From NCBI GenBank assembly GCA_016194335.1, contig JACQBR010000017.1:1-64000 (forward strand): 64,000 nucleotides of DNA, in the 5' to 3' direction. Within the stretch, counting starts at the first letter, position 1. Every line of letters begins with the position of its first letter. The notes beneath the pieces are model-generated. The model had not been told where the DNA came from. It did no database searches and was given only the letters and a program-made list of their open reading frames with translations. A program made the position numbers and the translations under genes. Below, in pieces: positions 1,443 to 59,396 of the stretch. This DNA comes from Microcaldota archaeon. GTDB taxonomy: Archaea > Micrarchaeota > Micrarchaeia > Norongarragalinales > UBA97.

Positions 1443-4065
1443 CTTGCACGGGCCCGCCGTATTCGTAAGGCGCGTTTACCTGCACCGAGGCAATGTCATC
1501 AAGCGACGCGAGGTCGCTGGCCTTGACGTAGCGTTCTGACATCGTGTAGAGCGCGTCGCCGATGTAGGCGCTGCGTTCCACGCTTGCAGTGCCGTACCAG
1601 TACTCGCCGGACTTGCCAAGCTCCTCCTTCGTCGCGTGGGTCACGCGGCCTCGGATGGAAAAGCCCGAGTCGAGAGAGACGTTGATGACGTACGCCCCTT
1701 GGAACGCGTAATCGCCGTAGACGTGCTCGGCCTCTCCCGCAGGATATTTGCTTGAATTGAGTTCCGCGAGCAGGACGGGAATGACGATGATTCCCTTCTC
1801 CCTGCTGAAGAGAAACGCCTTGTGGTCGTGCAGCGCGTTGGAATCGGTTCCGGCATCGCCCAATTTCAAGGTGGCCGTTTCCCTGGGATTCGCAACGTCG
1901 CTCACGTCAAAGAGTGAGAGCTTCAGCCCCGTGGGGAATGCTGCGGCTTCCTCCCCATTGGCATCAAGCTTCACCGGAAGCGCGTCCTTGCCCAGCCCGA
2001 TGAGGTGCGTCCCGTCGTAGGGATGCAGGTAGTCGGAATATCCCGGAATCTTCAGCTTGCCCAACATCTCTGGGTTCCTGGGGTCGGAAAGCGAAATGAC
2101 GAAAAGCGGGTCGAGTTGCCTGAACGTAACCATGTACGCCCGGTCGCCCATGAAACGCACGGAATAGATGCGCTCGCCAGGCGCGAGGTTCTCCAGCTTG
2201 CCCGCGAGCTTGAGGCCCGAATCGAGAACGTAGAGGTGGTTCTTTGAAGGCGCGACCTCGCGAGGCTCCGGGCGCGGATACCAGACGGGGGGATAACGGA
2301 TTGGCATCATTGCCATCCCGAGAAACGGCCCGCCTTCCCAGCCGCCCCATTCCTGCGGCGTGGTAGTCGCAATGCGGAGGTAGCCGTCCTTCTCGCCAAG
2401 GGAAAATTGGTTCAGAACGGTGCCGGGAACTTCGCCCTCGCCGGCGTAGCTGATGCCTTCAGCGCCATTTCCAAGCGAGAACTTGTGCACGACGGTCCGC
2501 TGGCGGCTTGAAACGCCAAATTCGGATTGTTCCGGTGATGCCGTTGCGTTAAGCGAGGCCTCGAGATCCCTGTAGAGCTGCGCCTGCTGCTTCCTGCTCA
2601 ATTCGTAGTCGATGAACTGCGCAATGACGGAGTTCTTCAGCGACGCCTTCACCCACGCGGAGGCATCCGAATCGTCAATCTCCTTGAGCTTGCCTTCGAG
2701 CCCCGCATTCGAGTTGGGCTTGACGAGTTCCGCAAGCTTCGCCTCGACTTCGTAAAGCGGGCGGAGGTAATTGTCATAGCGCGCGTAGGTAACGTATGCG
2801 TTTTCCTGCGAGACGTAAATTGTCTGCGCCCCTCCCACGAGGACGACCTTGCGCCCGGCGTCCTTGGAAAGGTCTGCAAGGTCGATTGAGGATAGGATGG
2901 TGAACTGGTAGCCCCCGGAAGAGGGGTAGTCGAAGTAGCTCACTTCCGAAGCGTCGACCTCCACAATTTTACCGTCAACGGAAAGGAGTGGCACCGGACC
3001 GCCGTAGTAAGCGGGCTGGGACACGACGGTGAACACCCTGCTGCCAATCATGCGCGCGTCGGCGTAATTGCCGTTGAACACCACGGTCTTGAGAACCTCT
3101 GGATTGGCGCGGTCGGAAATGTCGTACACGCGGACGAACGAAGAGCCGCCATACCAATACGGACGGCGCGCCATAAAGCCGGGCGCGGCAATTGCCCTGG
3201 CGGCTGGCACGGAACCAGAAGATGCGGCTGCCGAACCAGAAGGCGCCTCTGAAACCGAGGCGGGTCCCGAACCGGAAAATGAACCTGGAGCACCCGATGC
3301 GGGCGCGGAACCGGAACTTCCCGAAACTCCCGAATCCGCCTGAACGCCCCCGGCATCACTTTGGTTTGGAGGGGCAAGCGCCTTGTCAACCTGCGCGTTT
3401 CGAATCGTTGGAATTTCCCTTATCGGCCATGGGTAATTTGCCGTGCCGAACGCGACGAGTTTGTCGCCGTTGACGAAAATGCTGTTGACCGAATCGCCGG
3501 CGTAGTAACCGGGAGCGAAACCCCCATTCGCGCCATTACCCCCGGAAGGCTTGCCGCCGATGCCCGAAACGCTGATGTTGGAAACGACCTTCAAATCGCT
3601 TGCGGGCGCCGCCTTGAGAATCACGATGTTGCCCCCCGCAACTGCGTAGAGGTAATTCCCGTCGTTCTTGAGAATGTCCGGCTCGTCAACGCCCGCAACC
3701 TGCACGTTGGTGGTGGAATAATCAGAAACTGAAGAGGCCGGAGCGTTTGAGTCTGCAGACTTTTGAGACGCGCCAGCAGCAAGAGGAACCGCGGCTTCCC
3801 TCATCAGCCCGCCATAACCGCCGTAATTGCCGCCCTGCTGGGTGGCGCGGAGGAACGAAGCGAGCTCAAGGCCGGATTTGAATTGCTTGAGCGACGAGCC
3901 TGGAGTTTCGTTATAGGCAGCCGGGAAAGAACTTGGGGAAACCGACGGGGCTACCGTAGGCGTGGGGCTGGCAACTGGATTGCGTTGGGTGATGCAGCCC
4001 GCGAGAAAAAGCGGCGGGAGAGCCATCAGGAGCAAAACCAACTTGGGACCGAACTTCAAGGCCAT
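1435..4065 (-). CDS. Secreted beta-propeller-domain lipoprotein
   Basis: The protein starts with a lipoprotein signal peptide: a hydrophobic run ending LFLAGC, where the cysteine would be lipid-modified. A Ser/Pro/Thr-rich linker follows, then a long domain matching the archaeal and bacterial secreted C-terminal beta-propeller family, with the hallmark NVQVAGVDEPDILKNDGNYLY. A low-complexity Gly/Ser/Ala/Pro segment (about residues 240-295) interrupts the propeller. An upstream TTG at 4083 is in frame, but ATG 4065 with AGGTGG about 9 nt before it gives a clean signal peptide. Function is unknown; it is likely exposed at the cell surface. Confidence 0.85.
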   Translation of the reverse strand: MALKFGPKLVLLLMALPPLFLAGCITQRNPVASPTPTVAPSVSPSSFPAAYNETPGSSLKQFKSGLELASFLRATQQGGNYGGYGGLMREAAVPLAAGASQKSADSNAPASSVSDYSTTNVQVAGVDEPDILKNDGNYLYAVAGGNIVILKAAPASDLKVVSNISVSGIGGKPSGGNGANGGFAPGYYAGDSVNSIFVNGDKLVAFGTANYPWPIREIPTIRNAQVDKALAPPNQSDAGGVQADSGVSGSSGSAPASGAPGSFSGSGPASVSEAPSGSAAASSGSVPAARAIAAPGFMARRPYWYGGSSFVRVYDISDRANPEVLKTVVFNGNYADARMIGSRVFTVVSQPAYYGGPVPLLSVDGKIVEVDASEVSYFDYPSSGGYQFTILSSIDLADLSKDAGRKVVLVGGAQTIYVSQENAYVTYARYDNYLRPLYEVEAKLAELVKPNSNAGLEGKLKEIDDSDASAWVKASLKNSVIAQFIDYELSRKQQAQLYRDLEASLNATASPEQSEFGVSSRQRTVVHKFSLGNGAEGISYAGEGEVPGTVLNQFSLGEKDGYLRIATTTPQEWGGWEGGPFLGMAMMPIRYPPVWYPRPEPREVAPSKNHLYVLDSGLKLAGKLENLAPGERIYSVRFMGDRAYMVTFRQLDPLFVISLSDPRNPEMLGKLKIPGYSDYLHPYDGTHLIGLGKDALPVKLDANGEEAAAFPTGLKLSLFDVSDVANPRETATLKLGDAGTDSNALHDHKAFLFSREKGIIVIPVLLAELNSSKYPAGEAEHVYGDYAFQGAYVINVSLDSGFSIRGRVTHATKEELGKSGEYWYGTASVERSAYIGDALYTMSERYVKASDLASLDDIASVQVNAPYEYGGPVQVI

Positions 4066-4176
4066 AAGGAAAACCACCTGCAAACTTGATGCGCTAGAGA
4101 AATGTGACGGCCTACCTATAAAAAACGGAAGTTATTTTCAGGAAAAAAGCTCATGAAATAAGTCAGGCGGGCGGCC

Positions 4177-5571
4177 TTATTTTTCGCAGGCTCTCAGGAT
4201 TTGCAACAACGCCTGCTCGCCGCCCCACGGAGCGATGACCTGCAGGCCCGCTGGCATGTTTTCCTTTTTCGTCCTGCCGGCAGGCACGCTCGCGGCTGGA
4301 AGGCCGGCGCAATTGGCGGGCACTGCCAAGATGTCGGCAAGGTACATTTGCAGCGGGTCCTGGTCTTTCTCGCCAAGCTTCCACGCCACCATCGGCGCTG
4401 TGGGTCCCATCACCGCGTCAAAATCGTCAAACACGCGGGCAAATTCCTTCTTGAGCGCGTCGCGCGCCTTGAGCGCCTTGGAATACCAAGCGTCACGGAA
4501 TTCCTTGGTCGTGACGTAAGTGCCGATGAGAATCCTGCGCTTCACTTCCGCCCCGAGGGCGCGGTCGCGCACGGTGCTGACGATTTCGTTGAGGTCGCGG
4601 CCGTTGGCCTCGCTCCACGGCATCCCGTACTTCAGCCCGTCGTACTTCTGCATAGCGCTGGAGAATTCGCTCGCGCAGAGGATGTAGTAGATCGGGAGGG
4701 CGTACTTGAGGATGGGGAAGGAAAATTCGCGAATCTCCACCCCGTCGCGGGCGGATTCGAGGGCCTTGATTTTCCCCCAGACCGCCTCGGAAACCCACTC
4801 GTCGCAACCGCTGAAGAATTCCTTGGGAACGCCAACGCGCAATCTCTTTGGAAACGAATTGAGATGCGCGGAATAATCTACGCGAGCCACGCCCGCGGTC
4901 ATTGCATCCCGCCCGTCCTCGCCCATCACGGTGGAAAGCAGCCTTGCGCACGACCCCACGTCCCGGCCGAGGGGGCCGAGCTGGTCGAAGCTCATCGCAA
5001 GGTCGCAAATGCCGTAGCGTGAAACCGCTCCATACGTGGGCTTTACGCCCACGGCGCCGCAGAATGCCGCGGGAAGGCGGATGCTCCCTCCCGTGTCCTC
5101 GCTCAGGGTTACGTCGCAGAAGCCCGCCGCAACCGCAGCCGCGCTCCCACCGCTGCTCCCTCCGGGAACGCGCTCGAAATCAAGGGGGTTGACCGTTTTT
5201 GCAAGCTTGCTGCGCGAACAATCGGAACCGCAGGAAAATTCATCGAGGTTGGTCGAACCGATGATTACGCCATCCTCGGCGATTATGCGCTCGACAGCGG
5301 TTGCGGAATAGGGGGCTGCGTAGTTCTCAAGCATTTTCGACGCGCAAGTGAGCCTCTTGCCCCTCACTGCAATGCTGTTCTTGATTCCAACGACCAAACC
5401 CGCAAGCGAGCCCACTTTCTTGCCAGCCTTCATTCTCGCGTCAATGTCCCTTGCCTGCGCGATGGCATCCTCTGCGTAAACTTCGATAAACGCGCCAATC
5501 CGCGAGTCGCGGGCGGAAATGAGTTCGAGGCGCGAGCGGACGTTCTCCTCGACAGAATCGGGATTCTTCAT
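4177..5571 (-). CDS. gatA: Asp/Glu-tRNA amidotransferase subunit A
   Basis: GatA is the amidase subunit of GatCAB, which converts Asp-tRNA(Asn), and in some organisms Glu-tRNA(Gln), to the amide form. The 464-residue protein has the amidase-signature triad: Lys64 in VGIKNS, cis-Ser139 in PGGSSGGSAAAVA and nucleophile Ser163 in DTGGSIRLPA, with the spacing seen in characterised GatA. It lies 11 bp after gatC on the same strand, while gatB is 33 kb away. Since GatDE is also encoded here, GatCAB probably serves Asn-tRNA. Confidence 0.96.
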   Translation of the reverse strand: MKNPDSVEENVRSRLELISARDSRIGAFIEVYAEDAIAQARDIDARMKAGKKVGSLAGLVVGIKNSIAVRGKRLTCASKMLENYAAPYSATAVERIIAEDGVIIGSTNLDEFSCGSDCSRSKLAKTVNPLDFERVPGGSSGGSAAAVAAGFCDVTLSEDTGGSIRLPAAFCGAVGVKPTYGAVSRYGICDLAMSFDQLGPLGRDVGSCARLLSTVMGEDGRDAMTAGVARVDYSAHLNSFPKRLRVGVPKEFFSGCDEWVSEAVWGKIKALESARDGVEIREFSFPILKYALPIYYILCASEFSSAMQKYDGLKYGMPWSEANGRDLNEIVSTVRDRALGAEVKRRILIGTYVTTKEFRDAWYSKALKARDALKKEFARVFDDFDAVMGPTAPMVAWKLGEKDQDPLQMYLADILAVPANCAGLPAASVPAGRTKKENMPAGLQVIAPWGGEQALLQILRACEK

Positions 5572-57720: not shown

Positions 57721-57760
57721 GCATCGCGTTTTTAATTTTTTTGTAGTGCCTAACTTTCCC

Positions 57761-57976
57761 ATGGCCTTCACGCGCATCAAGAGAATCAAGGGCATCCCCT
57801 ACGCCTACCGCGTGGAGTCCAAACGGGTCGGCGGGAAAGTGGTGCAGCGGGTGCTCGCCTATCTGGGCCGCGTGGGCGAAAGGACCTCGCGGGGAAAAGT
57901 TGCAGCACCTAACTTGCCGAAAACTAAAGTGCCGAAGAAGAAACCGGTTAGGCGGCGCAGAAAAAGGAAGAAGTAG
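57761..57976 (+). CDS. Small basic protein with YLGR motif
   Basis: A 71-residue protein with IPYAYRVESKRVGGKVVQRVLAYLGRVGERTS and a lysine/arginine tail (KKPVRRRRKRKK). The core resembles the N-terminal region of some archaeal transposase-related or DUF proteins but is free-standing. GTG 57746 is an alternative start. Its stop codon overlaps the 3' end of the convergent tRNA-iMet. Confidence 0.6.
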   Translation: MAFTRIKRIKGIPYAYRVESKRVGGKVVQRVLAYLGRVGERTSRGKVAAPNLPKTKVPKKKPVRRRRKRKK

Positions 57977-58161
57977 CGAGGGGAAGATTTGAACTTCCGA
58001 TCTTTACCCAAGAGCTTTCCTTGCAGAATGAGAAGAAACGCTCCTTCCGGGTTATGAGCTTCGCCCTGCGATGAAAGGCAGTTAGGCACTACACTTCAAA
58101 GCAGACCAGCGGGCACTCCTGGCTACCCTCAAGGTCCCGAAAATTCCGGGATTACCTCGCT
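57974..58161 (-). tRNA. Initiator tRNA-Met(CAT) with three introns
   Basis: Exons on the minus strand: 58161-58153, 58128-58106, 58059-58047 and 58003-57974, giving a 75-nt tRNA. AGCGAGG pairs with CCTCGCT and A is the discriminator; A1-T72 is the initiator hallmark. D-arm GGGT/GCCC, anticodon loop CTCATAA, T-arm GGAAG-TTCAAAT-CTTCC. Introns: 24 nt after position 9 (central helix GAGG/CCTT, inner stem TCCCG/CGGGA); 46 nt at 30/31 (CGCT/GGCG, inner CTGC/GCAG); 43 nt at 43/44 (ACCC/GGGT, inner AGGAGC/GCTCTT). All three fit bulge-helix-bulge with bulges split two/one. No CCA is encoded. No canonical 37/38 intron is present. Confidence 0.93.
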
Positions 58162-58186: not shown

Positions 58187-58195
58187 TACCTCGCT
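58187..58195 (-). repeat. Second copy of the tRNA-iMet 5' exon (AGCGAGGTA)
   Basis: The nine bases AGCGAGGTA occur again on the minus strand at 58195-58187, 34 bp before the copy used above. A TATA-like ATTATTAAAT at 58230-58221 is about 30 bp upstream of this outer copy but about 64 bp from the inner one. In the other tRNAs here the TATA box lies 21-26 bp before the mature 5' end. Confidence 0.5.
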
Positions 58196-58220
58196 ATCCT
58201 AACTGTTTTTGCCCGGAGCA

Positions 58221-58230
58221 ATTTAATAAT
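58221..58230 (-). promoter_or_regulatory. TATA box of tRNA-iMet
   Basis: ATTATTAAAT on the minus strand is the only TATA-like element upstream of the tRNA. TFE starts divergently at 58753; its own stop is just beyond at 58238. The 76-bp leader region between the TATA box and 58161 contains a GCTAGC inverted repeat. Confidence 0.4.
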
Positions 58231-58237
58231 CAGTTCC

Positions 58238-58753
58238 TTACGCTTGGCCCTTCACTAGGGCTTCAATCGCGCTGATTTTCCCCTCGAGTTCCTTCAGTTC
58301 TTTCGTGCCGTCGGCGAACTTGAGCTTGGCGCTGCAGCTTTCGCAGGCGAAGTTGAATTCCGCCGCCTTTTCAAACGGCAGCTTCGCGCATCCTTTCGGG
58401 CAGGCGTAGATGGCCGTGTTCTCCCCGCCGCCCGTCTGCCTGCGCACTTCCTCCAACTCCCTCCTCTTGAGCGCGAGGTAGTTGTTCATCGCCCGGTAGC
58501 TGTTCACCCTCCACGTGTAGGTGAACCATCCGCTCTGGAGGTTCTTCTCCCGGTTGTACTCCACGATGCCGTGGTTGTGCAGCGTGTTGAGCAGCGCCCT
58601 GATTTCAACCAGCTTGAGTTTCGTGTCCGCCTCGATTTTCTCGTCCGTGACCCCGTCGCCGTTTATGCTCCTCACGACTTTCAGGCCGTCGTCTCCCGAA
58701 ACTTCCTTCACGAAGCTTTCGAAGGAGAGCTTTGCAGTTTCTTTTTTAGGCAT
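58238..58753 (-). CDS. tfe: Transcription factor E, alpha subunit
   Basis: TFE helps open archaeal promoters with RNA polymerase. The 171-residue protein has an N-terminal winged helix (about 15-90, VTDEKIEADTKLKLVEIRALLNTLHNHGIVEY), the WFTYTWRVN segment and a C-terminal zinc ribbon (CPKGCAKLPF...CESCSAKLKF), then a short helix. Length is normal. It is upstream of the tRNA-iMet gene on the same strand. Confidence 0.92.
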   Translation of the reverse strand: MPKKETAKLSFESFVKEVSGDDGLKVVRSINGDGVTDEKIEADTKLKLVEIRALLNTLHNHGIVEYNREKNLQSGWFTYTWRVNSYRAMNNYLALKRRELEEVRRQTGGGENTAIYACPKGCAKLPFEKAAEFNFACESCSAKLKFADGTKELKELEGKISAIEALVKGQA

Positions 58754-58813: not shown

Positions 58814-59344
58814 TTAAGTCTTCTCCACGTTTTTTCCGTTTTGCGAGGGGATAATCCTGATTTTAGCGTTCGCGAATTTTTTTTCAAGCTCCCTCCCTTC
58901 GAACAACTCGTGAAGAAACACCGCGAGCGCCGCGACCTCGCTGTGCGGCTGGCTTCCCACCGCGATGTTGAAATCCACGATTCCGTAAAACTCCGCCGGG
59001 ACCTTTTCGCTACCAACGATTACCAGCAAGTTTTCCTTCGCCAACCGCCTGCGGATTTTCCCAATCTCCGCCATGAGGGGCAGCCCGTACATCGTGAGGT
59101 GCACCTTGGCCCCGTCGAATTCCCTTGCGAACTTCCGCGGGTTGTCGCAATAATCCGCCCCGAATCCCCCGCCCCACTTCCGCGCCGCCTTGTTTGCCGA
59201 GAGCAGCATCGCCTCGTCCCTCTCTCCGCAGAGGAGGAATCCGTCCGCGCCGAAAGCGCGCGAAACGAGGGCGCAGTGGCTGGTGACGCGCACGTCGCGC
59301 GAACGCCTGTGCGAAAGCCTCAGCACCGTCACCTTTCCGGCCAT
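58814..59344 (-). CDS. trm56: tRNA (cytidine-56)-2'-O-methyltransferase, Trm56
   Basis: Trm56 methylates C56 in the T-loop of archaeal tRNAs. From ATG 59344 the 176-residue SPOUT-like protein has VTVLRLSHRRSRDVRVTSHCALVSRAFGADG, the family signature, then HLTMYGLPLM and VIVGSEKVPAEFYGIVDFNIAVGSQPHSEV with the knot. It lies 80 bp from a tRNA-Lys whose T-loop is split by an intron next to the methylation site. Confidence 0.92.
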   Translation of the reverse strand: MAGKVTVLRLSHRRSRDVRVTSHCALVSRAFGADGFLLCGERDEAMLLSANKAARKWGGGFGADYCDNPRKFAREFDGAKVHLTMYGLPLMAEIGKIRRRLAKENLLVIVGSEKVPAEFYGIVDFNIAVGSQPHSEVAALAVFLHELFEGRELEKKFANAKIRIIPSQNGKNVEKT

Positions 59345-59396
59345 AGTTTTCCAAACCAGCAAAGAATCGAAATCTTATAATACGTTGCGCGGGCAC

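Follow-up and report, generated by a model that had tools for sequence, protein, structure and literature searches.

The locus at positions 57974–58161 of the window (the whole 64,000-nucleotide stretch of DNA analysed) raises the question of whether an initiator tRNA gene can be interrupted three times outside position 37/38 and still serve the cell. An earlier note on this DNA had proposed such a gene, giving these coordinates and exon lengths of 9, 23, 13 and 30 nt. Both are exact, and the gene lies on the minus strand.

The gene and its same-order orthologues

A complete archaeal initiator tRNA-Met is encoded on the minus strand from 58161 to 57974, with all exons in order. Exon 1 (58153–58161, AGCGAGGTA) provides tRNA positions 1–9; exon 2 (58106–58128) provides positions 10–30, comprising the D arm and the 5′ side of the anticodon stem; exon 3 (58047–58059) provides positions 31–43 with the CAT anticodon; and exon 4 (57974–58003) provides positions 44–73, with the T arm, the 3′ acceptor strand and A73. 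Exons 1–4 join into the 75-mer AGCGAGGTA GGGTAGCCAGGAGTGCCCGCTGG GCTCATAACCCGG AGATCGGAAGTTCAAATCTTCCCCTCGCTA, in which the acceptor (7/7), D (4/4), anticodon (5/5) and T (5/5) stems are fully paired. The spliced RNA has an intact cloverleaf, the CAT anticodon, A1:U72 and three consecutive G:C pairs in the anticodon stem (29–31/39–41); A1:U72 and the three G:C pairs are typical of archaeal initiators. CCA is not encoded, and the discriminator is A73.

The introns are 24, 46 and 43 nt long and lie at 9/10, 30/31 and 43/44, with none at 37/38. Each has a 4-bp central helix flanked by two bulges of about 3 nt, with another helix towards the intron, as expected of a BHB. Intron 1 (58129–58152, minus strand) has the central helix GAGG/CCTT, bulges divided as TA-A and GA-G, and an inner helix of 7 pairs. 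In intron 2 (58060–58105, minus strand) the central helix is CGCT/GGCG, the bulges are GG-T and AA-G, and the inner helix is CTGC/GCAG (4 pairs), while intron 3 (58004–58046, minus strand) has ACCC/GGGT, bulges GG-A and AA-A, and an inner helix of 6 pairs. The three central helices quoted in the earlier note are thus all present. A split or permuted tRNA is ruled out, the four exons lying in order within 188 nt.

Standard tools passed over the gene. ARAGORN found no tRNA in positions 1–64000 of the window; Rfam likewise found none there at the gathering score, RF00005 reaching only 17.6 bits at the locus. Standard annotation may therefore report the initiator tRNA as missing. A template-free structural search started from the 3′ end alone and could excise as many as three BHB-like inserts in any combination. 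Its top-ranked solution was precisely these three introns, at the maximum structural score of 27.5; the best of 400 dinucleotide shuffles reached 24.0. When a penalty per intron was applied, 2 of the 400 shuffles scored as well as or above the real locus, and structure alone is therefore not decisive. What decides the case is the sequence match to intron-free orthologues from the same order.

An intron-free initiator tRNA is present in eight genomes of the order (G001, G005, G007, G011, G017, G019, G021 and G023), and the 75-nt sequence is near-identical in, for example, G005, G011, G017 and G001. Other orthologues carry the introns singly: G003, from the same family, has only a 9/10 intron, also of 24 nt, G025 has only one at 30/31, and G013 only one at 43/44. 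The exon borders are thus fixed by relatives as well as by folding; the comparison with related genomes that the earlier note had recommended confirms them, and it also bears out the identity as initiator tRNA-Met and the positions of the introns. The 9/10 inner helix is TCCCG/CGGGA in the window and TTTCG/CGAAA in G003, so that the changes are paired on both sides. Two further genomes of the order, G009 and G024, also have three introns, at 9/10, 30/31 and in the T loop. The reading as an initiator tRNA-Met with three non-canonical BHB introns is supported, and the locus is very probably a functional, spliced initiator gene.

Intron slots across the class

Our survey of the class Micrarchaeia covered 143 distinct initiator genes. 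Introns are present in 64 of them, the remaining 79 having none; 36 genes have one intron, 17 have two, 10 have three (the window included) and one has four, although a few of the single introns, called at unusual positions, are open to doubt. Nearly all introns fall in five slots: 9/10 (27 genes), 30/31 (21), 59/60 (19), 37/38 (18) and 43/44 (14), with the reservation that the alignment parser, which tolerates gaps and favours BHB motifs, may have placed individual borders one nucleotide out. The earlier note had called the arrangement in the window extreme. Its three introns are real, but nine other initiators of the class also have three, among them several members of family f18, and one has four.

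Within each slot the exon dictates the partner in the central helix; the inner helix differs in sequence from gene to gene and remains paired. Pairing of the inner helix is 86% at 9/10, 92% at 30/31, 80% at 59/60, 77% at 37/38 and 89% at 43/44. When the 3′ sides were shuffled between genes, pairing fell to 41–52% over the five slots (48–52% for 9/10, 30/31 and 43/44); the largest values in any shuffle were 70% (9/10), 67% (30/31) and 73% (43/44), and the observed value was reached in none of 2000 shuffles per slot, a test of covariation that is somewhat inflated by the relatedness of the genes.

The gene with four introns (locus L278; genome G114, contig C65, 17254–17872) has them at 9/10, 30/31, 43/44 and 59/60, with lengths of 40, 40, 31 and 31 nt. 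The spliced product is a perfect 75-nt initiator; the inner helices have 11, 2, 10 and 10 pairs, and two of the central helices have 3 of 4 pairs. Four introns exceed the published maximum of three, and a full-text literature search found no archaeal tRNA gene with four. Both the slot pattern and the four-intron initiator appear to be undescribed in the open literature searched.

Reuse of the same slots across families, and the persistence of introns in an essential single-copy gene, could mean that they are kept for a function, by timing the supply of initiator, guiding modification or acting as circular RNAs. We consider this improbable: loop sequence and length vary freely in every slot, where the splice motif alone is conserved, and the same families contain many intron-free orthologues. 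Most likely the introns serve no purpose in the mature tRNA and reflect gains, in several lineages, at favoured slots.

Copy number, splicing and the surroundings of the gene

The earlier note had regarded its reading as refutable by a second, intron-free initiator copy. We looked for one and found none: the assembly (1.18 Mb in 28 contigs, 85.4% complete) yielded a single match each for the initiator 3′ end and the initiator D arm. It is likely that the genome has no second copy, with the proviso that about 15% of it may be missing. Almost all genomes of the class with a match have a single initiator D arm, the exceptions including duplicates at contig ends; in genomes without a match, a loose D-arm search allowing 3 mismatches returned only noise. 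A scan of the genome collection with RGCGNNGCTCATAACCC gave mostly chance matches in bacteria.

The fragmented and incomplete assembly leaves a slim chance that the gene is a silent or degenerating relic, with an intron-free initiator in the unassembled part of the genome; the locus has more introns than most of its relatives, and an extra copy of exon 1 lies upstream. Against this, all 21 mature stem pairs are intact, being either identical to the consensus or compensated, all three splice motifs are intact, and the single D arm in nearly every genome of the class with a match means that a second copy is not expected.

The genome also encodes a splicing endonuclease of the ε2 type. A 431-residue protein (contig C23, locus L009) is a full-length relative of the ARMAN-2 ε2 endonuclease, aligning over residues 50–431 with structure 4fz2 (E = 9.5e-124) as a single chain that covers its αN-α-βC architecture. 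The alignment keeps the equivalents of Y236, H251, K282, R275, W384 and the ARMAN-loop residues Y160 and K161. According to PMC12397907, Y236, H251 and K282 are catalytic, R275 and W384 bind the bulge, and Y160 and K161 are loop-borne and needed for cleavage; enzymes of this type are described in PMC4033280 and PMC6379350 as cutting relaxed and non-canonical motifs. A multi-intron gene of the Thermoproteales type, processed by an (αβ)2 endonuclease, was rejected, since the genome has an ε2 enzyme. This ARMAN-type endonuclease also fits the placement of the window in a Micrarchaeota-like DPANN lineage. Among the other tRNAs of the genome, six are clean intron-free genes and three are plausible single-intron genes; the rest are ambiguous with the parser.

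We are therefore highly confident that this is a functional initiator gene expressed as one precursor, from which three BHB introns are removed by an ε2-type endonuclease before the exons are joined. In detail, the whole gene would be transcribed as a single precursor, the ε2-type endonuclease would cut out the introns at 9/10, 30/31 and 43/44, and the exons would be joined, presumably by RtcB. Each intron strand pairs with four exon bases: GAGG in the acceptor strand, CGCT at positions 25–28 and ACCC at positions 38–41. These bases also belong to the mature cloverleaf, and the splice motifs and the cloverleaf therefore compete.

For intron 1 the competition is complete in the folding model. 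The helix GAGG/CCTT has a pair probability of about 1 in a precursor ending just after the intron, and of about 0 in the full precursor once the 3′ acceptor strand appears, because GAGG is also the acceptor strand and is captured by the acceptor stem. In prefixes of up to 165 nt, the minimum-energy fold still contains the intron 1 splice helix. Folding of the growing precursor thus points to recognition of intron 1 before the acceptor stem closes, and suggests co-transcriptional or sequential splicing. Our prediction is that the enzyme probably cuts intron 1, or holds on to it, while transcription is still under way or before the cloverleaf and acceptor stem close. The intron 3 motif is retained in the folds of both truncated and full precursors. 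The central helix of intron 2 has a probability of 0.03 in isolated folding, where a shifted pairing competes; that the model disfavours this helix, although it is the best conserved of the slot motifs, is a mark of the limits of folding models.

An imperfect second copy of exon 1 (TACCTCGCTAGCC/TACCTCGCTATCC on the plus strand; 58187–58199, read on the minus strand) lies 34 nt upstream, in the leader. It occurs only in this genome of the order and is absent from relatives; it may be a decoy 5′ exon or a remnant of a duplication. PMC11782384 discusses direct repeats close to intron borders. Were this upstream copy of AGCGAGGTA the real 5′ exon, intron 1 would be about 58 nt long. It offers the same 9 nt and the same potential central helix GAGG/CCTT, lies nearer to the TATA-like box, and pairs with the 3′ end when the precursor is folded with its leader. 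Inspection of the sequence, however, reveals no inner helix beside the bulge, compared with 7 pairs for the downstream copy, and the related gene in G003 has an intron of the same 24 nt without any second copy. We thus regard the upstream copy as very unlikely to be the true exon, and retain the downstream copy at 58153–58161.

The TATA-like sequence TTATTAAAT (58221–58229, minus strand), some 60–68 nt upstream of the tRNA 5′ end, is a candidate promoter identified by eye; a scan for sigma-70 promoters, a model not applicable to archaea, found nothing. Further upstream on the same strand are genes for a TFE-α-like protein (58238–58753, PF02002) and the tRNA 2′-O-methyltransferase aTrm56 (58814–59362, PF01994). 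A small convergent ORF (57746–57976, plus strand) overlaps the last three tRNA bases (57974–57976) with its stop codon on the opposite strand.

Intron 2 contains a 14-mer, TGTAGTGCCTAACT (58080–58093, minus strand), which recurs at 57742, 52722, 61285 and 39941 in the window, at 4147–4414 of L463 and at 1020 of L464. The window holds 8 matches at up to 3 mismatches, more than expected (0 of 100 shuffles). Several copies lie within genes, on the strand opposite VRHY codons, and others are intergenic; given the antisense copies, a mobile repeat was not established. The GTTAGGC within the 14-mer resembles an integron attC core, which is only a lead. L463 also encodes a membrane protein (4061–5008, plus strand), exosortase-like by eye, with five in-frame N-terminal VRHY repeats at irregular spacing.

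Known systems and significance

No lineage is known for more tRNA introns than the Thermoproteota. Of the 49 initiator genes that we parsed from this phylum, nearly all have no intron or one, usually at 37/38, in a sample whose 3′-end pattern would miss T-loop introns. The one unclear case (L347, genome G364) has possibly two or three non-canonical introns and was not cleanly parsed. The triple-intron genes named as examples for Thermoproteales (Pyrobaculum, Thermoproteus) are tRNA-Glu and tRNA-Pro, whereas the gene in the window is an initiator with all three introns non-canonical.

Also comparable are ARMAN-1 and ARMAN-2, also Micrarchaeota, which are described as having multi-intron tRNA genes and a broad-specificity three-unit endonuclease; the excerpts of PMC4033280, PMC6379350 and PMC12397907 contain no mention of a three-intron initiator. 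Rebuilding of the essential initiator by BHB splicing is shared with Nanoarchaeum equitans, whose initiator is split at 37/38, and Thermofilum pendens, whose initiator is permuted at 59/60 with a further interruption at 37/38 (PMC3218864), whereas the window has one contiguous, unpermuted cis gene with no 37/38 intron. In the Asgard groups Atabeyarchaeia and Freyarchaeia, which belong to a different phylum from the window organism, introns occur in 92–95% of tRNA genes, are often non-canonical, and are multiple in more than half (PMC11291895).

BHB introns, the presence of several in one tRNA, and the ε2 enzyme are therefore already known. What is new, as far as we have checked, is an initiator with three non-canonical introns, the class-wide pattern of fixed slots, and a relative with four. 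We advance, with the case evenly balanced, a broader proposal: that the essential single-copy initiator of Micrarchaeia is a hotspot for introns, offering four fixed slots (9/10, 30/31, 43/44 and 59/60) in addition to 37/38, filled independently in several lineages; that G114 (L278), which fills all four, has the first four-intron archaeal tRNA gene; and that an intron at 9/10 imposes an obligatory co-transcriptional order.

Since standard tools miss such genes, DPANN genomes are credited with smaller tRNA sets and lower completeness than they have. No protein is made without the initiator tRNA, yet these archaea build it from up to five exons; with 0–4 introns in fixed slots, the 143 orthologues constitute a natural experiment on intron gain, the substrate range of ε2 endonucleases and the order of splicing.
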